From: a virus | Length of the DNA stretch: 25,110 nucleotides | Direction: 5' to 3' (one strand) | Virus record (IMG/VR): IMGVR_UViG_3300010391_000857 | Location: 1 to 25,110 of that record | Shown: positions 1 to 15,816 of the stretch, piece after piece | Layout of the letters: every line of letters begins with the position of its first letter | Position numbering within the stretch: position 1 is the first letter of the stretch | Made by a program: the position numbers and the translations under genes | The notes under the pieces: generated by a model | Seen by the model: only the letters and a program-made list of their open reading frames with translations | Database searches by the model: none | What the model was told of the DNA's origin: nothing

Positions 1-455
1 CCCTGCGGGCCGGTCGGGCCGGTAGGCCCCGCGACACCGCTTGCACCTGACAAACCCTGGAAACCTTGCGGCCCAGTCGGGCCTTGTACACCAGGAATAC
101 CCTGTAAACCTTGTAGGCCGGGAAATCCCTGCGGGCCTTGTGGCCCGACTGTCAAGGTCGGCAACAGAGTCACGCTCAGGTCGTTATTGCCCGGCACGAT
201 GGTCACGGTGCGAGTATCGGTGCTCCATCCCACAGCGGGCGGCATCACCGTGATGACGTGCGTTCCGACCGGAATGCTTACGCTCATAGGCGTAACTTTG
301 CCCGTGTCCACGCCGTCGACGAGTACCGAGGCGCGGTCGGGAAATGAAGTGACTTTCAATGCACCGTCGCCCGACTGTGTTTCGACGAGCTTGGGAACCG
401 AAATGGCAAGCCCGATGAATAATGCAAGTGCAAGAATCACTGCCTTGATTTTCAT
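1..455 (-). CDS. Secreted PEGA-domain protein with collagen-like repeats (C-terminus cut off)
   Basis: I translated this frame by hand from ATG 455-453. It stays open to the left edge (about 151 codons). It begins [19 protein letters not shown], a positively charged start followed by a hydrophobic stretch, which looks like a signal peptide. Residues of about 30-100 resemble a PEGA domain: short beta strands with [13 protein letters not shown] and then [12 protein letters not shown]. From about residue 104 the chain turns into Gly-X-Y collagen repeats such as [19 protein letters not shown], which continue past the edge. A strong Shine-Dalgarno (AAGGAGAAAAC) precedes the ATG. PEGA domains are usually found in bacterial surface proteins, and collagen repeats form trimeric stalks in many phage fibres and bacterial exosporium proteins. 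The gene follows two glycosyltransferase genes. Its role is unknown: it could be a phage-encoded surface or fibre protein, or a host-altering cargo gene. Confidence is high that it is coding and moderate on the PEGA name. Confidence 0.85.
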
Positions 456-558
456 GTTTTCTCCTTAGAGTTTATGCGCCCCATATTGTCATTTCCCCTT
501 CAAACGGGTCATGCCAATCGGGTATTGCACTTTCAAAATCAACTGTCCGGCTTTACTT
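456..558 (-). other. Intergenic leader before the PEGA-collagen gene
   Basis: This 103-base gap lies between the glycosyltransferase stop and the PEGA-collagen start. It is one of the larger gaps in a very tightly packed operon. It ends in the AAGGAG ribosome binding site of the next gene. I see two tiny overlapping ATG-to-stop frames on the minus strand (MTRLKGK and MTIWGA, joined as ATGA), but nothing shows that they are translated. I found no convincing -35/-10 pair and no terminator hairpin. Confidence 0.4.
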
Positions 559-2193
559 TCACCAGTCACTGGGGTCGCCTTCTCTTCCATTAAGATGCAC
601 CCACTGCTGCGCCCCGCCTTCGGGGTAGTAAATCATAATCTTGTACGCATCCCACGAGGATTCAGAAACCGGAGAGTACATCACGGTCTCAATCATGTTC
701 TTGCGCCCGCGCGGGAAATGCTCGTTGAGCATCCGTCGGTAGAATTCCACGGTGCCTACGTTCGGCCACTGTGAATACTGGCGGGTCTTGACAAAGCGCG
801 CGCCGTAGTGCCAGCACTGGCCGTTCATCAGGTAGTTGTGTTCCGGGTGAATCTCAGCGTAGTAATACAGCCGCACCATGTTGGCTGCCCCGGATAACAG
901 GGTCGCGGCGATGGCGTCCCACTGTATCGGGGCGGGAAGGAAGACGGCGTCGTGCTCGATAAACAGCACGAGCGGGGTATGCACCTTTTCAATCGTGTGC
1001 CGGAGCATCTCCGCCTGCTGCGTGTGCTGGTCAAAAACGATGGGCAGGACGTTGTGCCAGTCGTGGTTGCACTTCCATAAAAGGCGCCGCTTGTATTCCT
1101 CGTACTGGCCGCGTCGATGCTCCATCGCCGGCCGGACGCCGTCGAACATCAGGATGATTTCGGCGCGGGGAAAGTGATGGCGCACGCTGGTAATCGTTTT
1201 CTCAATCATAGCGGTATCGGGGTGGGAGGGAATCGGGGAGGTGGGAATCAGAACAGTAATCATATCTTCGACTTCGCCGACGTGCGGCGGGACGCCGGAG
1301 ACGGTGCGGATGTCATCTTCGAGGTTGTAAACAAGCTCGCGCTTGTATTGTTGCCACCAGGAACTGCAGCGGGTCGCGTTCTCCGGCCAGCCGCGTACTA
1401 GGCCCGGCATCAGGCTGGGCAGCGTGCTCCAGTCCCCAATCACGGGGAACGGCAGCCCCGGCCCGAACACGTACTCCCAATAGCCTGCCGGATAGTCCGC
1501 AACCGGCGCTGTGGCGTCCACCACGGGCACACATCCGGCTTCTAGGGCCTCGGCGAAGCGGAAGCTATCTGGGCCGCAGGCACCGGAGGGGCAGGGCACA
1601 ACTTTGGCCGACACCATCCGTGCGTAGTACTCCGCGCACTCCAAGCCCTGCGTGAAGCCCGCCGTGCGATTCAAAAAGCCGTTGGGGAGCTGGGCCAGGG
1701 CATTCACACATTGCTCCCGGCGCGGATGAGAAATCTGCCCGCTGAAAAACCAGTCGAGGGGCCGTGGGGCGCTCCACGGATGCTGCGAAAGGAAGCCACG
1801 GGCTGAGGCATAGCCGTTCGGTAGGCGTCGATTGGCGAAATCGTGGCGGCCTGGTCGCGGCATCATGACGTACAGCCGCATGTTCGGGTGCCGGATTTGC
1901 TCGGCGGGAAAGACCCCGGCTTCATCTCCAACCAGAAGCAACACTACCCAGCGAAGGCGGGCGATGTCGGCGTTCAGCCGGTCGACGCAAGCGGCCTGCT
2001 TCATGCCGGGCAGCACTACTACAGCGCCCTCGGCGGCTGCCGGTAGCGCGGCGAAGCCTTCGCAGGAAATGAACTCGTGCGCCAGCACCGGCGACCAGAC
2101 CTTGCGGCTGAAAACATCTTCAATCAGCGCCGTGTCACCAATACCCACGGCTGGGGGTTTCAGGCAGATAACTCTGCCATACCACGTGAACAC
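559..2193 (-). CDS. Two-domain glycosyltransferase (exostosin-like GT-B half fused to a GT-A-like half)
   Basis: This is a 544-residue protein that probably transfers sugars from activated donors in the cytoplasm; acceptor unknown. The first half (about 1-300) ends with an exostosin/GT-B-like segment: EYYARMVSAKVVPCPSGACG, then FRFAEALEAGCVPVV at about 212-225, a typical nucleotide-sugar site. The second half starts at about residue 311 with MITVLIPTSPIPSH and looks like a family-2/GT-A fold: ITSVRHHFPRAEIILMFDG, then LFIEHDAVFLP near 410-420, where EHD may replace the metal-binding DxD. The start is GTG 2193-2191, chosen because AAGGAGG lies 10 bases upstream and because the frame reads sensibly from there. 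It overlaps the end of the GIY-YIG gene by 34 bases, so its ribosome binding site lies inside that gene. Next to another glycosyltransferase and fibre genes, it may decorate virion proteins or host surface sugars. Family assignment is by eye. Confidence 0.8.
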   Translation of the reverse strand: MFTWYGRVICLKPPAVGIGDTALIEDVFSRKVWSPVLAHEFISCEGFAALPAAAEGAVVVLPGMKQAACVDRLNADIARLRWVVLLLVGDEAGVFPAEQIRHPNMRLYVMMPRPGRHDFANRRLPNGYASARGFLSQHPWSAPRPLDWFFSGQISHPRREQCVNALAQLPNGFLNRTAGFTQGLECAEYYARMVSAKVVPCPSGACGPDSFRFAEALEAGCVPVVDATAPVADYPAGYWEYVFGPGLPFPVIGDWSTLPSLMPGLVRGWPENATRCSSWWQQYKRELVYNLEDDIRTVSGVPPHVGEVEDMITVLIPTSPIPSHPDTAMIEKTITSVRHHFPRAEIILMFDGVRPAMEHRRGQYEEYKRRLLWKCNHDWHNVLPIVFDQHTQQAEMLRHTIEKVHTPLVLFIEHDAVFLPAPIQWDAIAATLLSGAANMVRLYYYAEIHPEHNYLMNGQCWHYGARFVKTRQYSQWPNVGTVEFYRRMLNEHFPRGRKNMIETVMYSPVSESSWDAYKIMIYYPEGGAQQWVHLNGREGDPSDW

Positions 2194-2870
2194 GCACCGA
2201 GGGCCTCCTTTCGTTTAGCCAGCGCTTGTCTGATTAACGGGGCCATTTTCTGCCGCGTTTCTATGGAATGAGGCTTTCCTGGCTTTCCTCTTCTCCCTAG
2301 CGCCAACGCCGCCCTATGTGCGCTGGCCTTTTCGCTCGTCTTGTGCGACATACTGAGACGCGCCTTAGATTCCTCTGACATAGGCCCGCGTTTTCGGCCT
2401 TTCAATACAGAGGGCAGACCCTTGCGCAATCTCAGCCGAGCAGCAAAATCCGGACGCTTCTTACCTGTGTTGCTAATACTTATTCTTCGTCGCGTTTCAT
2501 CAGAATGTTGCCTGGCTCTATTCTGTGCAGCAACGGCCAAACGCACATGTTGCCCCACTATATGTCCAGGCGAACCATCTCCACCATCAGAAAGGTTATA
2601 CCCGCCCGCCCTTGTTTTGAACGCACGAATCAATCCGACCTCATAATAAGCAGCATCGGCGCGCGCGCCAACGATTACAAGCGGTTTGACACTGAACGCC
2701 TTCGCTCCGTATTTCCTAATGGCATTATTAAGTCGTGGCCTATCACGAGAACCATCAAGGGCACTGTAAACAAGACCGCGCCAGTATTTGGCCAGCTTTT
2801 GTGATGTTTGTCCTATATACAAAGCTCCGGTCACGGTGTTCGAGACTACATAAACGGTGTATACCCTCAT
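2160..2870 (-). CDS. GIY-YIG endonuclease with NUMOD3-type DNA-binding repeats
   Basis: This 236-residue protein resembles free-standing homing endonucleases. The N-terminal GIY-YIG core shows VYTVYVVSNTVTGALYIGQT, and YEVGLIRAF carries the likely metal-binding Glu. The C-terminal half holds basic NUMOD3-like repeats (HSDETRRRISISNTGKKRP, MSEESKARLSMSHKTSEKA and HSIETRQKM), which contact DNA in this family. Where the family normally has an Arg before Trp in the first helix, this copy reads LAKYWRG, so the catalytic Arg seems to be replaced by Tyr and the enzyme may be weak or inactive. The ATG overlaps the previous glycosyltransferase stop as ATGA. The 3' end runs into the next glycosyltransferase gene and supplies its ribosome binding site. 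This placement between two cooperating genes without breaking either fits a mobile endonuclease gene. Confidence 0.88.
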   Translation of the reverse strand: MRVYTVYVVSNTVTGALYIGQTSQKLAKYWRGLVYSALDGSRDRPRLNNAIRKYGAKAFSVKPLVIVGARADAAYYEVGLIRAFKTRAGGYNLSDGGDGSPGHIVGQHVRLAVAAQNRARQHSDETRRRISISNTGKKRPDFAARLRLRKGLPSVLKGRKRGPMSEESKARLSMSHKTSEKASAHRAALALGRRGKPGKPHSIETRQKMAPLIRQALAKRKEALGACSRGMAELSA

Positions 2871-3844
2871 TTTAGCTCCACCGTTTCCAAGATTGTTCTC
2901 ACCCGCTGAGTATAGGCGTGGTAGGTACGCACATGCGCCGTCGCGGTGCGCTGCATCGCAATCCGTTCGGCATCGTGCGCCAGGTAGTAGTCGATTGTTT
3001 CTTTCAGGTCATTTAAGTCCTGGGGATTATACTCAGCAAGGCCGGGGATTTCCAGACCCTCAACGCGGGGGTGAATCAAGAAGCCGCCGCGCCCGATTGT
3101 TTCTGGGACTCTATCCGACCAGTAGCGCGGTGCCCCGGCGAAGCACGAGTCACCGACAACCACTTTGGCCGAGGCGTAGACGTCGTTCAGCTCCTTCTCC
3201 CGGACGGTCGCGCCCCCGTTGATTTTTCGCGGCCCGCCGCAGTCTCCCCCGCCGAAGTGTCCGTACCGCGCACCGTAGGTATTCGCCAGCCAGTCCACTA
3301 GCGTAGCACGGAATGGATACTCCGGGTGATACCCTCGCGCGCCGACGAAGATGACATCAAAGGCGTATTCGGGACGGGGCGTGCCGTCGTAGCAGCCGCG
3401 CTCGACCACGGCCGGCGGAAGCCAAATGTGATTGACGCCGCGCGCCCGGAAGCCTTCTTCATTTCCGCCGTCGGCGGTGAACACGTAATCTGTCCGCCAA
3501 AGGGCGTGCTGGCCGATGCGGGACTCCCGCTTGTCCAAGACCTCCAGGCCCCAGAAACGGTCGAGGTGGAAGCTGGCAAGCACCGTCCCCTGCTCCCGCA
3601 GGGCGGCGAACACGGCGTCCGTGCCCGGCTGAACACTGTTGTGGGTATGGATATAAAGCAGAAGGCTTGGGCGTTCCGCCCGACAGACGCCGATGATGTG
3701 CGCGGGGTCGGTACTCCCCTCCTGGAACTTCAGAACACGGCAGCCGATGTGCTCGAACGACCACGCGAGCTCCGACTCCGTAGAGAAGGTCGGGACAAGA
3801 TTTCCCCAAATCGCGACCGTGCGCGGTACAAAGTCCGGCGTCAT
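2867..3844 (-). CDS. Glycosyltransferase, CgeB-like / GT-B fold
   Basis: This 325-residue protein is probably a cytoplasmic sugar transferase. The N-terminal Rossmann-like half contains VAIWGNLVPTFSTESELAWSF and LLLYIHTHNSVQPG. The middle has DYVFTADGGNEEGFRARGVN followed by IWLPPAV, and the C-terminal half has the typical donor-binding layout NDVYASAKVVVGDSC, then RVPETIGRGGFLIHPRVEGL. This matches glycosyltransferases of the CgeB/glyco_trans_1_2 type; donor and acceptor cannot be read from sequence. The ATG at 3844 has AGGAG nine bases upstream. The stop overlaps the start of the GIY-YIG gene (ATGA), so the two are likely translationally coupled. It is the first non-structural gene after the fibre block and together with the two-domain transferase forms a small glycosylation cassette. 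Confidence 0.82.
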   Translation of the reverse strand: MTPDFVPRTVAIWGNLVPTFSTESELAWSFEHIGCRVLKFQEGSTDPAHIIGVCRAERPSLLLYIHTHNSVQPGTDAVFAALREQGTVLASFHLDRFWGLEVLDKRESRIGQHALWRTDYVFTADGGNEEGFRARGVNHIWLPPAVVERGCYDGTPRPEYAFDVIFVGARGYHPEYPFRATLVDWLANTYGARYGHFGGGDCGGPRKINGGATVREKELNDVYASAKVVVGDSCFAGAPRYWSDRVPETIGRGGFLIHPRVEGLEIPGLAEYNPQDLNDLKETIDYYLAHDAERIAMQRTATAHVRTYHAYTQRVRTILETVELK

Positions 3845-3909: not shown

Positions 3910-5316
3910 TTACGACAGTTTTTCCAAAACAAGGCGGATGGCGTACTGCATCGTCGCCGCAGGGTCGCTCGCGTAGCCTGTTGTCGCGTACTGAACGGCC
4001 ACGCCTGTCTTTGCGCTGATAATGGCTGTAGCTTGGCGAAGCGTGGTCAATATGTTCCCGGCGTCCGTCGGCGTCAGCGTCAGCGACTGCGCCGTGTTGT
4101 TATCAGGGTCAGTCCAAGTGATGACAATGCTTGGCAGCGTAGAGGACGTACCAGCAACCGTGGTCACGACGATATAGCCAGCCACACGGAAGCTCCCGGA
4201 AGCGCCGGGGGTAACAAGCGTTGTTGCCCCAATGTTCGCTGTTTGTGCGGTCGCGTTAGCCACGACATACCCGGAGAGGTCGGTCACCGCAGGCTGGGCA
4301 GCTAGCGGTGTGCCGTCGGTGCCTAGCTCCGTCAGAAACTGGGTCGCTACCGCTGCCTTAGATTTCATTCCGCCTAGCGTAGTCGTGCTCGGATTCGGCA
4401 GCACGCCAAAGACCTGATAGTTTGCGCCATCTGAAACGATAAGCACGTGCCCGTTCTTCTGCAACACCAGCGTTGCCGCGCCGTTGATGGTGCTGGTCGT
4501 CGGCGTGATTGTAACCACACCAGCGTTCTTGTTCTGAACAAACACGAACCAGCCTGCGAGGAACGCGCTTGCGGCCCCGGCCTGCGGCAGCGTAACCGCC
4601 ACTGGGCTAGCGTTATCGATGGTAAGCAGCTTGCCACGGTCGCCATTGAGTACCGTATAGGAGGTGCCGGTTTGAGCATTGACTGGATGCTGCAACGCTC
4701 CCGCCGATACTGGACTGCCCACTTCATAGACCGTGTTCACGCCGTCGCAGTAGAGGAAATGCGGCACGCCGGTGTCCGTGACCGTCACCGTGGTCGCACC
4801 CGTCCCGGCTTTGAAAATCAGATTGAATCCGCCCGTAGTGTTATTGACCACGAGATAGATGCGCTTGTTCGCGGGCAGCGTAATGGTGTTTGCCCCGCCG
4901 AGAGCTCCGGTGAAGAGGAAGAAGATGTTGGCCAGGGCGTCCGCCTGCACCAGCGTGTGCGTGGTGCCGGTAAGGGCGACGGAAATACTGTCATTCATCG
5001 CCTCATCGAGCTTGTCGAAGGCGGAATTGGCTGTAACTTCTTTAGAATTTTGTGAAGCTGCGATGTGACTAATGCAGTTATGTTACGCGCCTTTCGGCGG
5101 GGCAGGTCGTCTCCGCCGGCCTCTTGCGGTTCAATTCCCGCAAGCTCGGACTATCGCATCACCCCGAAGGGCGTTCGCTCGCTTAGTCTCTCACGGTGCC
5201 TTCCGGCTTCCGCCTTGTTCCCGTCGCAGGGTTCAAGTCAATCAGAGCGAATTTGCAACACATATCTTTCGATACGGTGTCCCCGTTTAGTTGAGGAGAT
5301 TTGGTGTTGAACTCAT
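3910..5316 (-). CDS. Tail fibre protein, gene split by a group I intron (join of 5316-5294 and 5074-3910)
   Basis: Exon 1 is 23 bases from ATG 5316-5314 to T5294. Exon 2 runs from C5074 to the TAA at 3912-3910. Joined, they give 395 residues starting MSSTPNLLISHIAASQNSKE, then VTANSAFDKLDEAMNDS. This N-terminus resembles a conserved fibre start seen in many tail proteins (NL-x-I-x-HI-x-x-SQ-x-x-KEVTAN). Exon 2 alone is open upstream to about 5083 but has no ATG or GTG before 4998, so a start at 4998 would cut this motif off. The body has beta modules (SYTVLNGDRGKLLTIDNA, ITPTTSTINGAATL, VSDGANYQVFG) shared with the fibre at 9377-10828. A linker TLGGMKSKAAVATQF follows, and the last 130 or so residues form a beta-rich tip ending RLVLEKLS. 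A likely ribosome binding site (AAAGGAAAAC) lies before the ATG, which overlaps the stop of the upstream GIY-YIG gene (ATGA). Probable role: adsorption fibre or tail-tip accessory. Confidence 0.85.
5075..5293 (-). ncRNA. Group I self-splicing intron (ORF-less, about 219 nt)
   Basis: The minus strand folds by hand into a group I core. P1: exon UCCU (5297-5294) with GGGA (5283-5280), giving the U-G pair at the 5' splice site. P2: 5280-5258 closed by a GAAA loop. P3: TTCGCTC 5251-5245 with GAGCGAA 5180-5174. P4: CTTG 5237-5234 with CAAG 5217-5214. P5: CCC/GGG (5231-5229, 5222-5220) with AA joiners on both sides. P6/P6a: CGG/CCG and GCC-GGAA-GGC (5212-5194). P7: GACTA 5188-5184 with TAGTC 5153-5149. 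P8: CGCCC-TTCG-GGGTG 5173-5160. P9: CTTGCGG/CCGCAAG 5144-5123. A further GGCGG/CCGCC hairpin lies at 5117-5096. The intron ends in G5075. The ends restore the fibre reading frame exactly, while the unspliced RNA stops after nine codons. The subgroup is not assigned; the small size and simple P9 suggest an IC-like intron. Confidence 0.9.
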
Positions 5317-6029
5317 TTGTTTTCCTTTCGGCGCAGCCAGGCTGCTCTCACCGCTGCGCTCAGTTTTGCCCTTTGTTCGGGGGTCAAACTCTTGTGCTTC
5401 TTTCCAAACTTTCTACGACGTTCTTCCGGTGTCAAGGCAACGGCCTGTGCCTGCTTCGTTTCAGATATACGTCTGCGTGTTTCTTCCGAGTGACGCTTGC
5501 CGTAAAAGGGGTTCTTCTCGCCTACAAGCAGACTATGCGCCGCGCTTTGTTTAGCGCGCGCGGAAACTGTATGTTTACGCCCAAGCATAGGATGAATCTT
5601 CCACCAGCGGCACGCTTTTCGACCCTCGCTATACGCCCGTCGCATTGCCTCACTTTGCTTCGCACATGTTTCTGAAGAAGCCTTTACTCCTCTTCTCTTT
5701 GCCGCCATCCGCGCTAGGCTCTCTGGCGGTAATGCCCCACCATCCCCGCCTGGTGTCATATTGTAACCAGCGGTCTGTTCTATCAAGCGGTAAAGCGCAA
5801 TGGCGAAAACTTCAGCCGCAAACATTTCTTGTTCTGTAACAAAGCCATCTGCAACAGTCTCAAGTGTGAATGCCGCCGCGCCATACTTTCGAATAGCGTG
5901 GGCTATTCCAACTTGGACACCACGTACTGCGGCGTCTCGATGTCCCTTCCAGCGCTTCGCAAGCGTACCGCTTGTAGCCCCGACGTACCACTTCCCGTTG
6001 ACCGTGTTCCGAATTAGATAGACTTGCAC
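5313..6029 (-). CDS. GIY-YIG homing-type endonuclease with NUMOD3 repeats
   Basis: This 238-residue protein shows a well-formed GIY-YIG core: VYLIRNTVNGKWYVGATSG, with Arg26 in LAKRWKGH and an acidic residue in TEQEMFAAEVF. The C-terminal half is basic with NUMOD3-like repeats (HPMLGRKHTVSARAKQS, NPFYGKRHSEETRRRISETK), which bind DNA in homing endonucleases. The start is GTG 6029-6027; no better ATG lies in frame and the ribosome binding site is weak. The stop overlaps the ATG of the intron-split fibre gene (AAATGA). The gene is therefore outside the intron but directly upstream of it. Free-standing endonucleases beside an ORF-less intron are known to promote spread of the intron, so this is the obvious candidate partner. 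It shares architecture, but not close sequence, with the GIY-YIG protein at 2160-2870. Confidence 0.9.
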   Translation of the reverse strand: MQVYLIRNTVNGKWYVGATSGTLAKRWKGHRDAAVRGVQVGIAHAIRKYGAAAFTLETVADGFVTEQEMFAAEVFAIALYRLIEQTAGYNMTPGGDGGALPPESLARMAAKRRGVKASSETCAKQSEAMRRAYSEGRKACRWWKIHPMLGRKHTVSARAKQSAAHSLLVGEKNPFYGKRHSEETRRRISETKQAQAVALTPEERRRKFGKKHKSLTPEQRAKLSAAVRAAWLRRKENK

Positions 6030-6037
6030 GGCAACAT

Positions 6038-6056
6038 TCTACCACAAGATGGCATC
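6038..6056 (-). repeat. Copy A of a 19-base repeat after a structural gene
   Basis: On the minus strand this reads GATGCCATCTTGTGGTAGA. It differs from the copy at 3856-3874 at two bases. In the frame GAT-GCC-ATC-YTG-TGG-TAR both differences are silent (TTG/CTG Leu and TAG/TAA stop), so both read DAILW-stop. It overlaps the stop codon of the 97-residue gene and ends 9 bases before the GIY-YIG start. Confidence 0.55.
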
Positions 6057-6348
6057 AATACGGATACACTTGTCCAGGCCCGCCGCTGTTGCCGCCGGTC
6101 GGAAAAAGCTGTCCTGCAAACGGTGTCGAGAGTGACAAATCCCAATAATCTCGAATCATGACAAAGACGTTCTTCAACCACGGAATGCCACGATAGCCGT
6201 TGATGGCAACCAGCGTTCCGCCGAGAGTAACACTATATCCGGCCCCGACCACTGTCCCTACAATAGCAATAGAAATGCCCGCAGGAACCACGCCCATTAC
6301 TGCTGCGCCGCCGTCGCCGTCACCGTAACCTTTTGCTGTAGTTGGCAT
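6055..6348 (-). CDS. Small Gly-rich structural protein of the fibre block
   Basis: This is a 97-residue protein I do not recognise as a named family. It begins MPTTAKGYGDGDGGAAVMG and contains beta-prone stretches (ISIAIVGTVVGAGYSVTLGG), then a more aromatic part (IPWLKNVFVMIRDYWDLSL), and it ends GGPGQVYPY. The composition is like other small phage tail-tip or fibre-associated proteins. The ATG lies three bases after the preceding gene's TAA (TAACAATG), with only a weak AGG upstream, so it is probably translated by coupling. Its position as the last gene after the three paralogues, and before the endonuclease and second fibre, suggests a tail-tip accessory. Another frame past its end reads DAILW-stop; I kept the annotated frame because its C-terminus looks natural. 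Confidence 0.65.
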   Translation of the reverse strand: MPTTAKGYGDGDGGAAVMGVVPAGISIAIVGTVVGAGYSVTLGGTLVAINGYRGIPWLKNVFVMIRDYWDLSLSTPFAGQLFPTGGNSGGPGQVYPY

Positions 6349-6350
6349 TG

Positions 6351-7424
6351 TTATTCAAACCTGATTCCCAGACCGGCCGCCGTTGCGCCGCCTGCTATTC
6401 CATTCTTCGTCATCAAGAAGGGGTGCGAACCGCCGTAGAGCATAACGTTGACCAGCATGCCTTCGGCAAAATCTCCCGATTTCATCAACACGACTGCGGA
6501 TGTCGGATTGGCCACATAGCCCGGCAGCGGGTGAACCAGAAATACTGGAACCTGACCGCCGTAAGCGTATGTCGCAGTGGTAGGCATCATAGCCCATAGA
6601 GGGCCGGTATCGGGCGTAGGAGGTTGCAACGCACCAGCCTTCGACTTGAACATAAGCTGTTGCTTGAGCGTGCCGTTAGAGTAATTCATCCACACGTACA
6701 CATAGGTATCCAAGTCAGAACCCACGGTATCCTTCGCGCGGTCAATTACCAGCATCACCGGCCCGGCCGCAGACGGAGAATTTCGCCACAGCAGCATACG
6801 GAGATTATCCGCGTCACCGGAAAAGCTAGATTCGTAAAAGGCCGTTGTCCCGCGAGCAACGGTATCGCTGCCAAGCGCATTAACTTCCGCAGGGCTACCT
6901 CCGGTGTTGAACAACAGACCGCTCACCGACCCGCTGCCGTTCGAGCCCGTGCCGATGGCGATGTTCAATCGCGGCGTGCTGGTCGTCGAATTCCAGTACA
7001 CAAATTTCACATAGATTGGGGTTGCCGCGTGCGACGCCCCGTTCGTGCGCCAGATTTCGAAGTTGTAACTGCGCCAATTCGTGGGTTGAAGTTTTGGCTG
7101 CACAGCCGGTGTGGCGGTAGTAATGTTCGCAATACAAATCCAACTGTTCCCTTCGGAATCTTGTACAAAATCATTCGAGCCGTTGTTCGTCGTTACGCCG
7201 ACATAGGCAGTACCATCAGCAATCGTTCCCCTATTTGTCAGCGTCGCCGGGGAAGGAATCACGGCCGCCGTGGGTATCACGATATTAGCCCAAACCACGG
7301 TGCCAGTATCAGAAGTCTTCACCCAGCCGAGGGCCGCGAGAGCCGTGCCGATAGCCTGCGCCCACAGCTTGTAGGCTGCCAGCGTGGTATTGTCATAAGG
7401 AACATAAGCCTGATTAGTCGCCAT
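6351..7424 (-). CDS. Tail-tip/fibre paralogue 3
   Basis: This is a 357-residue protein, third of three tandem relatives. I chose ATG 7424-7422 (MATNQAYVPYDNTTLAAYKL) rather than an upstream start at 7448. It overlaps the previous stop as TAATG, has GAGGTGGGA just upstream, and aligns with the N-termini of its paralogues. Shared landmarks are the N-terminal LGWVKTSDTG block, YNFEIWRTNGASHAATPIYV in the middle, IAIGTGSNGSGSVSG, and a C-terminus of the type (I/L)R(F/W)(E/D), here GLGIRFE. It is the most diverged copy, with an extra region (STTSTPRLN and the TNNGSNDFVQDSEGNSW area) and no cysteine-rich or membrane part. It is probably a minor tail or receptor-facing protein; no specific family is recognised. 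Confidence 0.75.
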   Translation of the reverse strand: MATNQAYVPYDNTTLAAYKLWAQAIGTALAALGWVKTSDTGTVVWANIVIPTAAVIPSPATLTNRGTIADGTAYVGVTTNNGSNDFVQDSEGNSWICIANITTATPAVQPKLQPTNWRSYNFEIWRTNGASHAATPIYVKFVYWNSTTSTPRLNIAIGTGSNGSGSVSGLLFNTGGSPAEVNALGSDTVARGTTAFYESSFSGDADNLRMLLWRNSPSAAGPVMLVIDRAKDTVGSDLDTYVYVWMNYSNGTLKQQLMFKSKAGALQPPTPDTGPLWAMMPTTATYAYGGQVPVFLVHPLPGYVANPTSAVVLMKSGDFAEGMLVNVMLYGGSHPFLMTKNGIAGGATAAGLGIRFE

Positions 7425-8410
7425 TAGTCCCACCTCAAAGCGAAACAAGGATTGCGCTGATTCGGACCCGCATTTTGTTTACTACCGAAGAAACCGAGCC
7501 ACGAATTCGCAAGAACCTTAATCGCCATGTACGTGCGAAGCGTGCCATATTGCGTTACGTTAAACAAAGCTCCATAGGGAACAAGCGTGGTGACAGCGTC
7601 GCCGATGTCATTTCCGTAGTAAGCAACACACATCAGAAGCGGATTGCCCGCGTAACCTATATTCGGGAAAACCGGCAGCGTCGGTGTCTTATTGTTCCAT
7701 ATCAACGGAATCACAGTCGAGAGTGTTGCAGTTTGCACCGTATAAGCACAGCCCATCTTCGGCCCGACCGAGGCCCCCGCCGCACCATTGGCAAAAATCG
7801 ACTGTTGCCACCACGTCGCGCCACTACCTTCTCCCGCCGATGCCCAGCCGATGACCGTGGTATTGTACTTCGCTGTGTACGCGCCTGTCGCGTCAAGGCT
7901 GCGCTCGAACCCGAAGAATTGCGGCAACAAACCGGTGATATTCTGCACCCACATCAGGATACCGAGATAGTTTGACCCGTCACCGGAGAAGAAGCAAGGA
8001 TACGTCGTGTCCTGTCCACTACCCTTGTTTGTCGAGCCAGTCCATGTCATGTCCACGGCGGTAATAAGATTGCCGGTCAGCGCGCCCGCGCCGTCCGACC
8101 CGGAACCGATTTGAATCTTGATGCGCGGCGTCGACGCCACATTATTCTGTGCACCAAAGTCAATGCGAAAGAAGATGGGGCAGTTCGTCTGGTTCGTACT
8201 GTTTGCACAGCGCCAAATCTCGTATCCCGCGAACGTATTTTGTGGCGGCTTGACGACCGTCGTCCAGTTGATTTGGCCGGTATCCGCCGTCTGAACGAAG
8301 CCCATCTGTGCCAGGTAATAACTAATTCCCGCAACGCTCCCGCCCCACGAGCGGAAGTTCGCGTCGGTCGTGTTGTCGTGCAGTAGATAAGCAAGAAAAC
8401 GCGTAGCCAT
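7424..8410 (-). CDS. Tail-tip/fibre paralogue 2
   Basis: This 328-residue protein is the middle member of the tandem family. It starts MATRFLAYLLHDNTTDANFR and carries the family blocks MGFVQTADTGQINWTTV, NTFAGYEIWRCANSTNQTNC, IDFGAQNNVASTPRIKIQIG and GSGSDGAGALTGN. It ends NPCFALRWD. It is clearly closest to the neighbour at 8412-9377. The junction with the upstream gene is TAAGATG with GAGGTGGGA ahead, and its own stop overlaps the next start (TAATG). I do not recognise a named Pfam family. Position between the tail-tip protein and fibre genes, predicted beta-rich composition and repeated copies suggest a virion surface protein, perhaps one of several alternative or stacked receptor-binding units. 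Confidence 0.78.
   Translation of the reverse strand: MATRFLAYLLHDNTTDANFRSWGGSVAGISYYLAQMGFVQTADTGQINWTTVVKPPQNTFAGYEIWRCANSTNQTNCPIFFRIDFGAQNNVASTPRIKIQIGSGSDGAGALTGNLITAVDMTWTGSTNKGSGQDTTYPCFFSGDGSNYLGILMWVQNITGLLPQFFGFERSLDATGAYTAKYNTTVIGWASAGEGSGATWWQQSIFANGAAGASVGPKMGCAYTVQTATLSTVIPLIWNNKTPTLPVFPNIGYAGNPLLMCVAYYGNDIGDAVTTLVPYGALFNVTQYGTLRTYMAIKVLANSWLGFFGSKQNAGPNQRNPCFALRWD
8256..8290. repeat. 35-base exact repeat, copy in paralogue 2
   Basis: These 35 bases are identical to 9226-9260 in paralogue 1. They encode the conserved TADTGQINWTTV block in both genes, and the identity stops at once on both sides. DNA identity of this length inside proteins that differ elsewhere suggests recent duplication or local gene conversion. 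Confidence 0.85.
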
Positions 8411-8411
8411 C

Positions 8412-9377
8412 TTATTCCCACCTCATGGCCAGCGCCGGGTTCCGAATCGTCGGCGATGTGACATTCTGGGATACAAAGTTGTTCGTTGCCCACGATAATT
8501 TCGTCATGATATACGTATGAGCCGCGCCGTAGAAGTTAACGACATAGCTACCGACGGAGACTGTCTGGTCAACCTCCGTCGCGTCACCAGCAAGAACCGT
8601 CTGCAGCGTCAACATCGGGTTGCCTAGCTTGCCCACGAGCGGAAAGACCGGCTGAGAGGGCGTCACGCTATTCGTGATGTACGTCGTCAGCGTGTCGTCG
8701 CTGGTCAGACTAATAACGATGGTATTCAGCGGCCCTATATTGCCCTGTGCGTTGGCAGCCAGGATAGATTGCTGTCGCCACGTGCCGACCCCGCTCGACC
8801 CCGTGGCCGCCCCGGCGACACCCGTGACCCACGTGTAGTAAGTAGCCACGTAGGTTCCGGCGTTGTTGAGCTCGCGCTCGAAGGCGACGAACATATTGGG
8901 ATTACCGTTCACCGCCATGTTCCGCCAAAGCAGCATTCCAAAGTAACTCAGCCCATCGCCACAGAAATAACAGTTGAAGGTCGTGTCTGCCTGGTCTGTT
9001 CCGGCACTGGCGTTGGCCAGGTCTACTGCCGCGCTCTGATTTCCGGTAATGACTCCAGCCCCGTCCGACCCCGACCCGAAGGTGAGACGGATGCGTGGAT
9101 TTTTCACTACGTTATTTTGTGCCCCGTATTCAATCTTGAAGAAGAGGGGGCACGCTGTTTGATTCGCGCTGTTCGCGGCCCTCCAAATCTCATAGCCCGC
9201 AAAGGTATTCTGCGCCGGGGCCGTTACCGTCGTCCAGTTGATTTGGCCGGTATCCGCCGTTTGCGTGAATCCCAGGGCGGCAAGCTGCGCGGAGATACCC
9301 GTCACATTATCCGCCCAGTTCTTGAACCGGGCGTCCGATGAGTTCGAGTGCTTTAGCTGTGCCGTAATCGTAGCCAT
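8412..9377 (-). CDS. Tail-tip/fibre paralogue 1
   Basis: This 321-residue protein is the first of three tandem relatives. It starts MATITAQLKHSNSSDARFKN and carries LGFTQTADTGQINWTTV, NTFAGYEIWRAANSANQTAC, IEYGAQNNVVKNPRIRLTFG and GSGSDGAGVITGN. It ends NPALAMRWE. The start overlaps the stop of the upstream repeat-rich fibre gene (TAATG). It shares many identical residues with paralogue 2 across its whole length, with the strongest match in the first 130 residues and weaker similarity in the C-terminal half, the pattern expected if the C-terminal half faces selection from receptors or antibodies. The role is inferred from context as a minor tail or fibre protein. Confidence 0.78.
   Translation of the reverse strand: MATITAQLKHSNSSDARFKNWADNVTGISAQLAALGFTQTADTGQINWTTVTAPAQNTFAGYEIWRAANSANQTACPLFFKIEYGAQNNVVKNPRIRLTFGSGSDGAGVITGNQSAAVDLANASAGTDQADTTFNCYFCGDGLSYFGMLLWRNMAVNGNPNMFVAFERELNNAGTYVATYYTWVTGVAGAATGSSGVGTWRQQSILAANAQGNIGPLNTIVISLTSDDTLTTYITNSVTPSQPVFPLVGKLGNPMLTLQTVLAGDATEVDQTVSVGSYVVNFYGAAHTYIMTKLSWATNNFVSQNVTSPTIRNPALAMRWE
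9226..9260. repeat. 35-base exact repeat, copy in paralogue 1
   Basis: Identical to 8256-8290 in the neighbouring paralogue and in the same reading frame. The two copies are 970 bases apart, about one gene length, and could pair for homologous recombination that would delete or duplicate a paralogue. Confidence 0.85.
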
Positions 9378-10828
9378 TAGGCTTGCAACTCCACATACTC
9401 AAACGTGATTTGTACTGTGCTTGTCGCGCCGCTCAGGTTCGTAATGGCGTAAGAAACGCTTGTTACCTGTACCGCTTCTCGGTTGAAAATCGGCGATGCC
9501 GGAGATAGAACCCAAGTCAGCTTGTCAGCCGTGTCTAGATACAAGTCAACACAAACGCCGTGCTGCGTACCGGGCGTAGGAGGCAGATTGCTCGGCCTGT
9601 TGGGCGACGTATCGGCATCGCGGGCCGCCATCGTAGAATACAGGCGCACACGCGCCTTCCGGTCGGCAATCACGCGGTACAGAAGGAATACTTTGGAGAA
9701 CGCCGTGATAACGCCGGTCTCGGTCACGCCGTCGGCAATCGACGCCGTGGTCTTTACCTTCGTCTGCATCGTGGCCGTGGCCCCGCCGCCGGCCGCCGCG
9801 TTGATAACGACCGACCCATCGCCCGCCGAGGCATCCAGCGTAACGTTAGAGCCAGCAATCAGATTCAGGAGGTGCTGCAGCGCGTTATCCGTGCCGCCGG
9901 TCTGCAGCTTGACCGTCAAGATTACTTTGTAATTTGCGCCGTCGGAATAGAGCCGCACGCTTTGATTCTTACGGAGTGCGTAGGTAGCCACACCGTTAAT
10001 CGTAGAAGTGGTAGGCGTGATTGTTACTAGCCCGTCGTGGATACTGACAAAGGTTCCGACCCAGCCCTTTTCGACGCCGCTCCCGCCCCCGGCCTGCGGC
10101 AACGTGACAGCGACCGCCGTCGCGCGGTTGAATAACAGGGTCTTGCCCCGGTCTCCGTCGTCGACCGTGTACGTCGCTCCCGTAAGCGTATCCAGCGTCT
10201 CGTTACTGAAAATGCCCATGTACCAGTCTGTGGCATCGGTCACGATGCTCGCAGCCTGGTACTTAATCATTGATTTGCTTGCTGCCACGCCGTTGATTTT
10301 CGCGCCGCCCGCTGGTGCGATTAGTAGCGAGCCGTCGCCGATATTCACAACACCTATTTTCCATGTCAAAGACGGCGGGGGAGTGGGCAATGTCAACGTC
10401 ACCTGCGTGGCGCTGTTGAAGATAATCCACTTTCCATTGTCGCCGGTAAGCGCCGTGTAACTAGTGGTTTTGACCACAGCCCCGGCATCGCCTCCTGTCG
10501 CAGCCGTCGGCAATCCGGCGAAATAATCTGTGCCATCCGTAGCAATCACCGTGCCCTCGCGGGTCGCCAGGGTGCGGGTCGCGGTACTGCCGTCCAGGTT
10601 CAAACCGTTCGGGTTGATAGTCAGCGTGCCAACCCCGATGTTCACCACGCCTATGACCCAACGCACGTCGGGCATAGACGCCGGGAGGGTCAGGGTAATC
10701 GCCGTGGCCTTATTGAAGATGAGCCACAGGCCGATGTCGGTCACCAGCGCCGTATAATCAAGCACCTTGACCACGGCCCCGCCCCAGCGAGGGTGCGCCG
10801 GAAATTGCGAGCTGGAAGGATTAGCCAT
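9377..10828 (-). CDS. Tail fibre protein with three tandem beta modules and a shared C-terminal domain
   Basis: This 483-residue protein has clear internal repeats. Module 1 (about 18-106) has YTALVTDIGLWLIFNKATAI and VIGVVNIGVGTLTINP. Module 2 (about 118-206) has YTALTGDNGKWIIFNSATQV and KIGVVNIGDGSLLIAP. Module 3 (about 208-302) has YTVDDGDRGKTLLFNRATAV and ITPTTSTINGVATYALRKN. A linker (LQTGGTDNALQHLLNLIAG) leads to a C-terminal domain from about 357, beginning KTTASIADGVTETG and containing ARVRLYSTMAARDADTS. That domain matches the end of the large tip protein encoded just upstream. Module 3 matches modules in the second fibre (3910-5316). Start and stop both overlap neighbours as TAATG. 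It is probably a side or tip fibre; receptor binding is inferred, not seen. Confidence 0.82.
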   Translation of the reverse strand: MANPSSSQFPAHPRWGGAVVKVLDYTALVTDIGLWLIFNKATAITLTLPASMPDVRWVIGVVNIGVGTLTINPNGLNLDGSTATRTLATREGTVIATDGTDYFAGLPTAATGGDAGAVVKTTSYTALTGDNGKWIIFNSATQVTLTLPTPPPSLTWKIGVVNIGDGSLLIAPAGGAKINGVAASKSMIKYQAASIVTDATDWYMGIFSNETLDTLTGATYTVDDGDRGKTLLFNRATAVAVTLPQAGGGSGVEKGWVGTFVSIHDGLVTITPTTSTINGVATYALRKNQSVRLYSDGANYKVILTVKLQTGGTDNALQHLLNLIAGSNVTLDASAGDGSVVINAAAGGGATATMQTKVKTTASIADGVTETGVITAFSKVFLLYRVIADRKARVRLYSTMAARDADTSPNRPSNLPPTPGTQHGVCVDLYLDTADKLTWVLSPASPIFNREAVQVTSVSYAITNLSGATSTVQITFEYVELQA

Positions 10829-13800
10829 TAGTGCCTCGGCACCTCAAGCGGGAGGATTGTGATGGTCACGGGCACCGTTCCGACCGTTCCCAGGTTCGTA
10901 ATGCGGTAATAGATAACGTCGGCGGGTACGGCGTCCATGTTTGCGCCGGTCAGTGGCGGACTCGCCTTCCAGTCCATGTCGCTGGTCAGCACCAGGTCGC
11001 ACACGACGCCCGTTTCCGCGCCCGTAGGCGGTAGGAAGTTGATGGCCCGCGTATCGGCATCGCGGTCGGCAGCCGTCGCGTATAACTGGAGCCTGCACTC
11101 CCGTGTGGTCACGGCGCGCAGTAAGATGAAGCTCTTGCAGCCTACGGCGATGCTCCCGGTCTCGGCTGCTCCGTTCGCCAGGCTCGCCGTGGTCTTGACC
11201 ACGTCCCTGCGCGTCAGCGTCGTCTGTTCCGGCGACCACTTGTTGCCGGTCGAGAGGTAGGTAAGGACGTCGCCGTCCACAGGTGTGCCCGCAATCGGCA
11301 CGCCGTTGATTGAAGTCGCGTCTGCTCCGCCGCTCACGGCCCCTGTACCTCCGATGGCGTCGTTCTGTGTCGGGAACCCCCGGCCAATGACCGCCGAATT
11401 CTGGAAGACACGCGCGCGAATGGTCAGCGGCAGCCCGCCCTGGTCAGTCTGTACGTTTGCAAAAGCATAGAAGTAGCTGGGCGTCACAAGCCCCGTAAGC
11501 GTTCGCACAACTGTTCCGGCGGCGTTCATGATTTCGAGGTCGTAGGATTCCGTGGCCTCGGACAACGGCACAGTGCCGATGCCGTCCAGCCACGCCCCGC
11601 CGACCCGCGTCCGCCGCACCCAAGAGATTGAGAAGTCCCCGCTCCCACTCCGCGTCCCCATGAATTGTGCCGGAGCGTAGGGCTTCAGGTCGAGTCCTGC
11701 GGAGGTCAGTATCTGCGCCCCCGCGCTATTCATCGGGTTGCCGATGGTTACCGCCTTGTAATACCGTCGTGCATTGATGCTGTCGGTACTGTTGTTGTCG
11801 CGCTTGATAGTGCCTGCGGTCAGTAGGATGAAGGTCTCCCCTATCCCGTGCGTCTTTGCCGCCCACTCGGTGCCGCGCCGCCCACGCAGCAGCGTGCTCA
11901 GCGTGTACGTCCCGTCGGCATTTAGAGTCGCGTTCGCAAACTGAATAACCTCTCCGCCGAGATAGCAGGCGTTCGCGCCGTTCAAGACGTTCAGTAACGA
12001 AGTGCTCGACAGCGTTGCCCCTGCCACTAGCTTCACCGTGATGGTGGTGACCATATCCCAAGAGAACGGGGAATTCAGTGGCGCAGGAGTAGCGGTCAGC
12101 ACATAACCGTAGGACGCCGCGTCGTTGTCAAAGGCAACCTGCGTGTAGTTTTCGTCATCCGCCGATTCGAATAGTACACCGCCCGGCCAGCTTGAGCCCG
12201 TGCTGCCCATCGCATAGTAGTAGCCCGTGATGCCGGGGGCCGGAGAATCCGGGTCTTGCAACAGCGTGGTGTCCAGCAGGAACAGCGTGGTCGGGCCGAG
12301 CGCAAGAATCTTCGTGGAGGTAAAGCCCACGGTATCCGCGCCGGGAAGCACCGAAATGTAGTTGCGCGGGTCTTCGCTCAGGCTCTGAACCTCAAGAACA
12401 TGGTTCTGCCCCATCGAGGTCTTAACCAGCCGTGCCTGGAACGGCAGCCCGTTGTATGTGAACTGGATAACGTCCGAGGGGTCGAGTTGTAGGTATTTTG
12501 CGCTCCAGAGTTTGAAGCCATACTGATTCCGCTCCGCCCAAAGCGTGGAGAGCGCCTTCTCCGCAATATTACGTGCCTCGTTGCTGCTCAGACTCATCGG
12601 GAGCTCGATGAGAATCTGCTGCTTAGTGGTCACCACCTTGCTCGCCCGGCGCTTGAGTTGCTTACCCGGCTGATAATCCAGTGCCGGGTCATTGTACGTG
12701 ACCGTTATTTCTCTCGGCAGGTCATGCTGCTGCCCGATAGTTTCTTGGAGTTTCGAACCCTCCGAAGCAATCCCCAGGTCATCTTCAGGAATAATCTTCA
12801 CCGGCGAGCCGCCACGCAGTACCGCCTTCAGTTTGAAGTCCGACTCCACTAGGTCGAAAAAATGCGCCTGAGCCAGCGGCTGCAGCGCCGCTTTAGAATC
12901 CGACGTCCTACTGATGTTGTAGCCCTTGACCGTCAGAGCCGCCAACGCGGAAACGTTGATTTCACTGGCGGACAAACCTGTGCGCGTAATCAGGTCGGAG
13001 ACCACGGTACTGAGTGCCTGGCCCGTGGTACTTTTACGGTCGAGCCATATACGCTGGAACAGGCCCCCATATTCCGTGGCAACGACTGTTAGGAATGAAT
13101 TCGATGTTTCATCATACGAGAAGTCTGTAATTCCTGCCCCGACAGTTACCCCCGGCAACCAATTGGTCTGTGCTGTGCTCTTTGCCAATGCCAACGTCTG
13201 CCCGTCGTAGACTCTTATTTGGCGCGTGCCTCCCGATACCACTGGAAGTCGAAGTTGACCGTCTACCGGCAATACTCCTTTGTATGCCTTCGGAGTCTGC
13301 GACCACAAAGGCTGGTCGGTAATCAACCCCGTTAGTGCGAGGCTCGCCTGAATCGTTCCGTCCACCGGATTTATCTTCAAAAGCCAGGCCGTATTACCCG
13401 CGAGAACCTTCGTCCCAACAATCAGCGTGCCGTCCGCCCCGTCGAAGATGCACCATAATCCCTGCTCGTAGGTTCCCATGTTCTTCGGAATCGTCAATAC
13501 CCGCGAGTCGTTCCCGCCATATCCCCGCCGGTCCAGAATAGAGATATACCAGTTTGTGTCGCCGGGTATCCCGTCATAGCAGACGCGGTAGATGATACCC
13601 GTTGCCGGGTCGAGGCCAGGATGCTCATACAGCGTCGGCTGATTGAAATCATTGCGTGGCTTCCACGAGGCAGGGGCAATTAGAACGTTGCTTATGTCGT
13701 AAACAGGGCCGTTGAGAAGTGCCAGCGTATCCGTATCGTAGACCAACATGTTGCCGCCGCCGGTCTCGTTGCTCTGTTGGAACGCGTACATCAGGTTGCG

Positions 13801-15150
13801 CCCATTTACTTTCGCAAACGCGAGAACAGTCGGAGTCAGGAAACTAGCTGTCCCGCGCGGGGGAGTGATAACCGCCGTGGGCCGAAATGAGGAGGGGTCA
13901 TAACGATAAAGATTAGGTCTCCCCGCACCCGCCGCATCAGGAAATCCCACCTGCCAAAGCCGTCCCGCCGTGTCAATTCCTGTGCCGCCAGACCGCACAT
14001 CACCACTAAACGGAATACGAAGCTGATTCGGCTCGACCCCGTCCGTCAATAGATTACCGCTCGCCACCATGACCGGCACGTTAGGGCCGGGGCCACTGTT
14101 TCGCCAGGTGACGTTATTGTCTACGGTCGCTGCGGCTTCTGCTGTTCCCCAGACCGGGGCGCTCCCGCCCGAAGTCTTGCTGCCGGTGCTATTGGTAACA
14201 GTCTGAATGTTTCCATTCGAATCATTGATTTGCGTGCCCACGTTATAAACGGTGTTCGCCAGCCACGCGGGGGCCGCTGCCGTCGCCGTGTCTCCCAAGT
14301 TGACGACGGACACCACGTCCGCCTCTGTTCCGAAAATCATGGCATTGCGACTGTAGGGGTCAACGTATAGTCGTGTAGGTGCAAAGATGGTTGTACCAGC
14401 ACCAGAATACGAAGCTGTCGGCCAGCCGGGGAATAGGGTGCGCGGGTATGAGTCACCCGCGATGGTAATCTCTGCTCGCAGGTTCGGAATGCGGTTGCCG
14501 AAATCGGCCAGCGGGAAATCGTTGACGACCGCGTAACATAGCCCGCGAAATGCCGGTGTTCTAGTAATACCCTCGATGGCCTGGATGGTCGGGTCGGGCA
14601 ACTGGTCTTCCGTGCCACGATAGAACACGGGGGCGAAGATGGTCGTCCCGGCCGTGGTCTGCGGATTCTTACCGCCTGTCGTACTCGTCAACCCGGTGCC
14701 GATGGACTGAGGCCCGGTGCCCGTCCTATCGTAGAGCAACTTTGAGTCGCCCCAAATCTTAGTCACATCCGCCGGCCCCTCGACCCAGCCAACGGCCATC
14801 GTTGACGAATAGGTATAGGTAACAGTGGTCTGTTGCGGGCCGCCCTTCGCTGACCTCTTCTCCGTGTTCTTAGTCTCCTTAATCTTCTCCGCCCAAATCA
14901 CCTCACCACCGACACGAAATGTTCCGTACCCCCACGGTATCGGGCTACCATTGGCCGAAGACATAACCTGCCGGTCTTGCAAGCGCGGGCCGTACTGCGT
15001 AGGAATCCTGCCAGGAAACAATATTCCACCAGCCAAACCACCGAGGCTCATGCCGAGAGACAGCCCGGCCCAAACACTCATCCCGCCTGTAGGCAGGGCT
15101 AGAAGTGCCCCGATAATTGCCCCGACCGCCATTAGTGCGATGCGTGCCAC
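10828..15150 (-). CDS. Large tail-tip (gpJ-like central tip / host-specificity) protein
   Basis: This 1440-residue protein should cap the tail and contact the host. Residues 1-50 are hydrophobic and Gly-rich (GAIIGALLALPTGG), then PTQYGPRLQDRQVMSSANG and IPWGYGTFRVGGEVIWAEK give the conserved tip-protein start. NRIPNLRAEI at about 219-228 normally leads straight to the next core part, but here about 470 residues intervene: a NYTVY-type carbohydrate-binding-like piece (TVYNVGTQINDSNGN) and propeller-like repeats (MLVYDTDTLALLNG, IRVYDGQTLALAKS). The core resumes at about 715 (VVSDLITRTGLSASEINVSA) and continues to about 920. Fibronectin/beta regions follow, with LLRGRRGTEWAAKTHGIGE near 1090, then a SINGVPIAGTPVDGDVLTYL linker, and residues 1317-1437 form a domain repeated in the next gene. 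The start is GTG 15150, with AGAGGA eight bases upstream; the in-frame ATG at 15132 lacks a ribosome binding site. Confidence 0.88.
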   Translation of the reverse strand: MARIALMAVGAIIGALLALPTGGMSVWAGLSLGMSLGGLAGGILFPGRIPTQYGPRLQDRQVMSSANGSPIPWGYGTFRVGGEVIWAEKIKETKNTEKRSAKGGPQQTTVTYTYSSTMAVGWVEGPADVTKIWGDSKLLYDRTGTGPQSIGTGLTSTTGGKNPQTTAGTTIFAPVFYRGTEDQLPDPTIQAIEGITRTPAFRGLCYAVVNDFPLADFGNRIPNLRAEITIAGDSYPRTLFPGWPTASYSGAGTTIFAPTRLYVDPYSRNAMIFGTEADVVSVVNLGDTATAAAPAWLANTVYNVGTQINDSNGNIQTVTNSTGSKTSGGSAPVWGTAEAAATVDNNVTWRNSGPGPNVPVMVASGNLLTDGVEPNQLRIPFSGDVRSGGTGIDTAGRLWQVGFPDAAGAGRPNLYRYDPSSFRPTAVITPPRGTASFLTPTVLAFAKVNGRNLMYAFQQSNETGGGNMLVYDTDTLALLNGPVYDISNVLIAPASWKPRNDFNQPTLYEHPGLDPATGIIYRVCYDGIPGDTNWYISILDRRGYGGNDSRVLTIPKNMGTYEQGLWCIFDGADGTLIVGTKVLAGNTAWLLKINPVDGTIQASLALTGLITDQPLWSQTPKAYKGVLPVDGQLRLPVVSGGTRQIRVYDGQTLALAKSTAQTNWLPGVTVGAGITDFSYDETSNSFLTVVATEYGGLFQRIWLDRKSTTGQALSTVVSDLITRTGLSASEINVSALAALTVKGYNISRTSDSKAALQPLAQAHFFDLVESDFKLKAVLRGGSPVKIIPEDDLGIASEGSKLQETIGQQHDLPREITVTYNDPALDYQPGKQLKRRASKVVTTKQQILIELPMSLSSNEARNIAEKALSTLWAERNQYGFKLWSAKYLQLDPSDVIQFTYNGLPFQARLVKTSMGQNHVLEVQSLSEDPRNYISVLPGADTVGFTSTKILALGPTTLFLLDTTLLQDPDSPAPGITGYYYAMGSTGSSWPGGVLFESADDENYTQVAFDNDAASYGYVLTATPAPLNSPFSWDMVTTITVKLVAGATLSSTSLLNVLNGANACYLGGEVIQFANATLNADGTYTLSTLLRGRRGTEWAAKTHGIGETFILLTAGTIKRDNNSTDSINARRYYKAVTIGNPMNSAGAQILTSAGLDLKPYAPAQFMGTRSGSGDFSISWVRRTRVGGAWLDGIGTVPLSEATESYDLEIMNAAGTVVRTLTGLVTPSYFYAFANVQTDQGGLPLTIRARVFQNSAVIGRGFPTQNDAIGGTGAVSGGADATSINGVPIAGTPVDGDVLTYLSTGNKWSPEQTTLTRRDVVKTTASLANGAAETGSIAVGCKSFILLRAVTTRECRLQLYATAADRDADTRAINFLPPTGAETGVVCDLVLTSDMDWKASPPLTGANMDAVPADVIYYRITNLGTVGTVPVTITILPLEVPRH

Positions 15151-15151
15151 G

Positions 15152-15610
15152 TTAGTCCTCTACGCCGGGAAGTTCAAACGCGCCGACGATGCGCCGGCGC
15201 CAATTCTCGTCCAGACGGTGCTCAATAGTAGTAGCCGACCCACCCTGATAACAGTGAATCATCGACAACCCTTGCCCAGGTATCTCGCCGACGAACGCCG
15301 CGTGGCAGGGGTCGGTAGGAATTCGCAGAGTCAGCACGTCGCCGGGCCGGATGTCCAGAATAGATTTCTGCTTCAGTCGGGCAACGCAAGTGTCGTGTAC
15401 GAAGCGCCCTTTCGGTTCCGTGGAGTAGGCACGGTAGTCGGTACGCAGCAACGGTACACCCCGCGTGTCCATAAGACCGAGGTCTTCCGCGACACAGAGA
15501 ATCAATCCAACGCAGTCCAGCGCGCGACCCTTCATGCGGCCCTGGTGTACGAACTTTGTACCTAAATAACTTCTGGCGCAGGCAACAACTTCTGTTCTTG
15601 TGGTGGGCAT
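15152..15610 (-). CDS. NlpC/P60-family tail peptidase
   Basis: This is a 152-residue cysteine peptidase of the kind carried at siphovirus and gene transfer agent tail tips, where it cuts cell-wall peptide cross-links during DNA entry. The sequence shows ACARSYLGTKFVHQG, then the active-site Cys33 in LDCVGLI, His103 in DPCHAAFVGEI and a third polar residue His119 in SMIHCYQGG. RPGDVL before the His is also typical. I chose ATG 15610-15608, because GGAGAAGGT sits directly upstream and the family fold begins there; the longer frame up to 15733 adds a non-family, Arg-rich lead. The start lies inside the end of the preceding 84-residue gene (49-base overlap), and the stop is one base before the GTG of the tip protein. 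Confidence 0.88.
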   Translation of the reverse strand: MPTTRTEVVACARSYLGTKFVHQGRMKGRALDCVGLILCVAEDLGLMDTRGVPLLRTDYRAYSTEPKGRFVHDTCVARLKQKSILDIRPGDVLTLRIPTDPCHAAFVGEIPGQGLSMIHCYQGGSATTIEHRLDENWRRRIVGAFELPGVED

Positions 15611-15816
15611 ACCTTCTCCGATAAGCACTCTTCTGTGGGCAACACGCGCCCGTCTAAATAGTAGGTGAGGGACACCGGCAGGTGGTCGAAGCAGCCGCGT
15701 TTTTCTGGGCCGAACTCCTCGAACGCCCGCCACTCATCGGGCGATAGAATCTCCCGGTTGTCAAAGGTGCCGCGTGCCGCGAGAGCGTCGCAGCCAGGAT
15801 AGCTACACGTCGCCAT
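15562..15816 (-). CDS. Small Cys-rich protein, possible zinc-binding
   Basis: This 84-residue protein has no family that I recognise. Its start ATG overlaps the stop of the DUF2163 gene (TAATG), so it is very likely translated. The spacing Cys4-x4-Cys9 and Cys42-x2-His45 (CSYPGC, GCFDH) could form a small zinc knuckle; two more Cys lie near the end (EECLSEKVC). The last 16 or so residues overlap the start of the NlpC/P60 gene in another frame. Position between DUF2163 and NlpC/P60 suggests a tail-tip assembly or structural role, but that is inference only. Confidence 0.65.
   Translation of the reverse strand: MATCSYPGCDALAARGTFDNREILSPDEWRAFEEFGPEKRGCFDHLPVSLTYYLDGRVLPTEECLSEKVCPPQEQKLLPAPEVI

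Follow-up and report, generated by a model that had tools for sequence, protein, structure and literature searches.

Does the truncated gene at the left edge of this viral record encode a part of the phage tail, a surface protein that the phage carries as cargo for its bacterial host, or a protein of the host chromosome into which the phage had integrated? The window, i.e., the whole stretch of DNA that was analyzed, comprises the entire IMG/VR record of 25,110 bases and is probably a fragment.

The truncated gene and its surroundings

The late genes of the window occupy the minus strand; they begin with head-completion genes close to the right end and continue to the left edge. The genes for the tail terminator, the major tail protein and the tape measure are followed by gp12, gp13, NlpC and gp15 genes of the gene-transfer-agent type, by fiber genes, by two glycosyltransferase genes and, in last position, by the PEGA-collagen gene, which shares its direction with the tail genes and starts about 3.5 kb past the last of them. 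The features at this end of the window are as follows:

3..455, minus strand: PEGA-collagen gene, 5' part, cut inside the collagen repeat (open reading frame, Pfam, Shine-Dalgarno site, family alignment)
399..455, minus strand: signal-peptide-like start of 19 residues (hydropathy, -3/-1 rule, modeled helix)
189..365, minus strand: PEGA domain, residues 31-89 (PF08308 above cut-off; modeled beta domain)
3..146, minus strand: collagen stalk, residues 104-151, reaching the contig end (PF01391 above cut-off; triplet count)
456..558, no strand: gap of 103 bp with the Shine-Dalgarno site
559..2193, minus strand: glycosyltransferase in which a GT47-like N-terminal half is joined to a second half
2160..2870, minus strand: GIY-YIG/NUMOD3 homing endonuclease, flanked by the glycosyltransferase genes, with atypical codon usage
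2867..3844, minus strand: phage glycosyltransferase (PHROG 28745, Glyco_trans_1_2)
3910..15150, minus strand: tail-tip and fiber genes, with a gp15-like host-specificity protein and a fiber set with three paralogues

The open reading frame at 3-455 starts with ATG, five bases downstream of a Shine-Dalgarno sequence (AAGGAG), and runs off the contig end after 151 amino acids. The N-terminus of its product is the most hydrophobic among the 24 window genes checked (3.13 on the Kyte-Doolittle scale over 13 residues, with a net charge of +2). The second most hydrophobic start (2.58) was found in gp15, which is a virion protein, so that hydrophobicity alone is no proof of export. A possible cleavage site between AIS and VP is acceptable under the -3/-1 rule; several cellular members of the family described below have stronger sites, of the AxA type. 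The start is followed by a PEGA domain (PF08308, E 3.9e-8, 33.5 bits versus a cut-off of 20.8), originally reported from cell-surface proteins of archaea and bacteria (PMC2447325), and by a collagen match at residues 104-150 (PF01391, E 2.5e-8, 34 bits versus a cut-off of 27.2), in which 16 perfect, uninterrupted Gly-X-Y triplets with zero charged residues continue up to the contig edge. Hydropathy and Pfam matches above cut-offs therefore bear out the initial annotation, which had placed a signal-like start, a PEGA-like domain and collagen repeats in one protein. An AlphaFold2 model based on a four-row alignment predicted a helix at residues 3-17 and a seven-stranded beta domain at residues 30-96, corresponding to the PEGA segment (pLDDT about 90-95), and left the collagen part disordered-looking; a sequence search returned no PDB match. 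Nearly all PHROG matches of the protein were confined to the low-complexity collagen part, and residues 1-50, searched for a virion-attachment domain, gave no phage-fiber match in PHROG or Pfam.

The codon usage of the PEGA-collagen gene is mildly atypical (z -2.2, compared with -6.1 for the tape measure gene) and is not decisive between a phage and a host origin. The window contains two GIY-YIG/NUMOD3 homing endonucleases, at 2160-2870 and 5313-6029, which are probably recent arrivals, since their codon usage (z -8.9 and -5.4, respectively) is unlike that of the other genes; the former overlaps each flanking glycosyltransferase gene by a few bases. Within the tail region, three tandem fiber paralogues at 6351-9377 (49% and 33% identity to 8412-9377) belong to a family that occurs in at least 54 viral loci, and the adjacent tail proteins at 9377-10828 and 10828-15150 are 42% identical over a common C-terminal module (about 130 residues), a pattern suggestive of a duplicated tip domain.

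Chromosomal relatives of the PEGA half

Searches for the PEGA half among phages were uniformly negative. No tblastn match to the PEGA protein was obtained among 50,697 phage records, and two peptide-pattern scans, the second with a four-member family alignment, covered 2.9 million viral contigs without a match; such scans detect only relatives with common short motifs. A pattern search of IMG/VR with gp15 alone likewise gave no close relatives. PEGA and collagen models returned zero matches in all 50 related tail-lineage viral records, as expected of a dispensable gene of the lysogenic-conversion (moron) kind. A scan of bacterial genomes retrieved four close relatives, from one deltaproteobacterial MAG, one Acidobacteria gp2 MAG and two gp22 MAGs, together with one weak match to a distant PEGA protein. 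With the four-member model, 396 Acidobacteriota genomes (including three seed genomes, which are not counted among the new matches) yielded three more full-length matches, one of which is interrupted by an in-frame stop, plus a single partial match, and 297 genomes of the phylum of the deltaproteobacterial MAG yielded no new family member. About 1% of the sampled Acidobacteriota genomes carry a member, usually in a single copy. In the member with the in-frame stop (L101, genome G289), a TGA lies between the PEGA halves, perhaps because the copy is decaying or because of an error in sequencing.

The cellular proteins follow a common plan of N-terminal signal sequence, PEGA domain, linker, collagen and variable tip (L087 being cut at its start). 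From its signal-like start to the collagen stalk, the window protein has the same order and motifs as the chromosomal proteins of the Acidobacteriota MAGs (L088, L090, L100 and L102) and of the deltaproteobacterial MAG (L087). It shares with them TGKVTPMSV, with its core TGKVTPM, and an 11-residue linker motif, and its collagen directly follows PEGA. The window copy is 65-71% identical to its cellular kin over about 80 residues of the PEGA module; pairwise identities across the family range from 65 to 76% over about 80 residues, the window copy being no more distant than the chromosomal copies are from one another. Unlike those five proteins, which are chromosomal and have complete C-terminal tips, the window copy adjoins phage genes and is cut off before its tip. 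The neighborhoods of the kin, judged by eye from translations, are ordinary chromosome with genes for RND efflux, ABC permeases, Mla-type transport and the Der GTPase, and no prophage was in view at these loci.

The tips of the cellular proteins comprise Peptidase_S74 (L087), Gly_rich_2 (L088 and L102), a T4 gp19-like domain (L100) and unassigned sequence (L090). The gp19-like tip is that of the chromosomal protein encoded at L100:1417-2742 (Acidobacteriota genome G385) and matches a tail-tube domain (PF06841, E 2.4e-11). With S74 and gp19-like domains at their ends, these cell-surface fibers seem to have tips in common with phage particles. Bacterial collagen-like adhesins such as Lcl, SclA and SclB (NCBIfam) are likewise exported surface proteins with a collagen stalk, but they lack PEGA, and the window protein matched them weakly and in the collagen part only (19-33 bits versus cut-offs of 325-500).

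Since the kin are exported and chromosomal and none was found in the phages searched, export to the cell surface is favored over a role in the virion. The opposite assignment, in which the protein is a collagen-stalk tail fiber or tip, placed as expected after the fiber genes and with a hydrophobic start that is not a signal peptide, appears unlikely to us. It would agree with the hydrophobic start of gp15, with the phage-particle domains at the ends of some cellular members and with the frequency of collagen repeats in phage tail fibers, as seen in the PHROG matches, in several related fiber loci and in published work (PMC3368898). The PEGA half, however, matches exported cellular proteins only and no phage protein, the PHROG matches fall almost entirely in the low-complexity collagen part, and the 50 related tail-lineage records lack PEGA and collagen matches altogether. 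The side-tail-fiber proteins EPclA and EPclB of Escherichia coli O157:H7 prophages resemble the window protein in that a collagen triple-helix stalk is encoded beside tail genes; however, they carry the phage fiber domains PfN, PfC and Pf2, with no signal peptide mentioned in that paper or listed among their domains (PMC3368898), whereas the window protein combines a signal-like start with PEGA and has no phage fiber domain. The PEGA-collagen product is therefore probably not a tail part, in agreement with the initial annotation, as no phage virion protein that we found resembles its N-terminal half.

Glycosyltransferases, related prophages and the extent of the phage sequence

As initially described, two glycosyltransferase genes precede the PEGA-collagen gene, but a homing endonuclease gene lies between them and the 103-bp gap separates them from it. 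Viral contigs supplied 33 relatives of the enzyme encoded at 2867-3844, and nine Streptomyces phages supplied further ones; in Streptomyces phage Yara, the homologue directly follows a large tail-region gene. Homologues of both enzymes occur together in six viral contigs (L114, L116, L117, L118, L124 and L125), none of which contains a PEGA-collagen gene. In the three contigs whose genes were inspected (L114, L116 and L118), the pair lies close to structural genes, inside larger sugar cassettes that also encode an epimerase, methyltransferases and further transferases. These cassettes, among phage structural genes, span L116:6418-13215, L118:7011-15943 and L114:3110-8903; shortly past the cassette of L116, a lipoprotein-like gene (15543-16262) shows a weak match to a purple acid phosphatase N-terminal domain. 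In L116 and L118, the two halves of the enzyme encoded at 559-2193 correspond to two neighboring genes; in the window they are fused, the second half being 32% identical to L116:10000-10776. Pattern searches of IMG/VR found no close relatives of the fused enzyme, and a search of 247 Acidobacteriota genomes, run without a positive control, found no homologue.

By homology, both glycosyltransferases of the window are phage genes, and since the nearer one was not found in those 247 genomes, phage sequence appears to extend at least to position 559. The window resembles the phage sugar cassettes in its glycosyltransferase homologues (both in L114 and L116-L118, the second in Yara); it differs from them in the PEGA-collagen gene beside the pair. 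Because the enzyme pair travels in other phages without that gene, we dropped the earlier suggestion that the neighboring enzymes glycosylate the PEGA-collagen protein. In the simplest reading, the sugar cassette decorates virion parts or host glycans independently of the PEGA-collagen gene.

Synteny links the tail module of the window to a prophage in an Acidobacteriota genome and to a viral contig (L006) whose far end carries an integrase-like gene. Identities to the prophage amount to 49% for gp13, 45% for gp12, 44% for NlpC, 39% for gp15 and 36% for the major tail protein, and the fiber set was matched as well. The synteny indicates that the phage and the PEGA-collagen family have a host group in common. 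The related prophage is inserted in tRNA-Leu(cag), with the complete tRNA beside the integrase and the attR, a 21-bp copy of the 3' end of tRNA-Leu, on the tail side, about 2.5 kb beyond the last fiber gene. This prophage, which lies in genome G127, also carries two exported-looking genes on the opposite strand (L202:5773-6870), placed between those for the major tail protein and the tail terminator; one of them has a lipobox, and the first matches PHROG 2320 (function unknown). Exported cargo therefore has a precedent in the lineage.

As host DNA follows the tail end in this lineage, a serious rival is that the window represents the tail-side end of a provirus, with the junction between 455 and 559, and that 3-455 is the first host chromosomal gene, encoding a normal surface protein. 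Every other family member is chromosomal, and in the related prophage the attR ends the tail side about 2.5 kb past the last fiber gene, against about 3.5 kb from the last tail gene to the start of the window gene. Furthermore, the divergence of the window copy, similar to that among chromosomal copies, and its z value of -2.2 fit a host gene equally well. On the other hand, a gene flanking the phage by chance would rarely be a member of so sparse a family, the gene points in the direction of the tail genes, and the gap, searched for terminator-like and promoter-like sites and for a tRNA remnant or att site, contains none of them. The missing tRNA remnant is at odds with the use of tRNA-Leu by the related prophage, although other integrases use other sites. 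Taking these points together, we regard a host flank as possible yet rather doubtful.

A third alternative, an assembly chimera in which the phage contig was joined to an unrelated bacterial fragment in or beside the gap, seems highly improbable. The gene does lie at the contig edge, the break falls inside a repetitive collagen stretch, and an exact search with the gap sequence for a continuing contig, in a collection that may lack near-identical records, found no second contig with the junction. However, the GC content of the gap and of the gene is unremarkable, the Shine-Dalgarno site is intact, and no common repeat was seen at the presumed junction.

A candidate collagen fiber on the lysogen surface

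The PEGA-collagen gene is either bacterial cargo on a phage or the first host gene beside an integrated phage. We are evenly divided on the first of these readings, in which it encodes a bacterial-type exported surface fiber carried as temperate-phage cargo. This reading gains from the co-directionality of the gene with the tail genes and from the terminator-free gap. It is weakened because the gene sits at the record edge with no phage gene beyond it, because no other viral contig found carries the family, and because temperate relatives meet host DNA on the tail side. Of the exported surface cargo initially proposed for this gene, export and display are favored by the exported chromosomal homologues, but ownership by the phage is put in doubt by the record edge and by the tail-side att site of the relative.

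If carried as cargo, the gene may have been acquired from an Acidobacteriota-like host by a temperate phage of that lineage, and would lie in the late region beside tail-fiber and sugar genes. Its product, made in the host cell, would be exported by the Sec pathway, as the homologous architecture suggests. The PEGA beta domain would remain near the envelope, and the collagen part would form a rigid triple-helix stalk as a trimer, in line with the homologous proteins and with known collagen biology. Binding would be performed by an exchangeable distal tip, which is missing from the record. On the surface of a lysogen, such a tip could alter adhesion or phage adsorption; any role in excluding phages or in adhesion is speculative. 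That a temperate Acidobacteriota phage displays a host-derived collagen fiber with an exchangeable, partly phage-like tip on its lysogen, as lysogenic-conversion cargo, is a proposal that we advance only tentatively.

The cellular family of exported PEGA-collagen stalks with phage-like tips appears to be undescribed in the literature searched, and its S74 and gp19-like tips suggest an exchange of parts between cell-surface and phage fibers. If the gene belongs to a host flank, it cautions against taking the edge genes of viral contigs for phage cargo. If it is phage-borne, phages of little-studied soil bacteria acquire exported collagen fibers and can alter the surface of their hosts.
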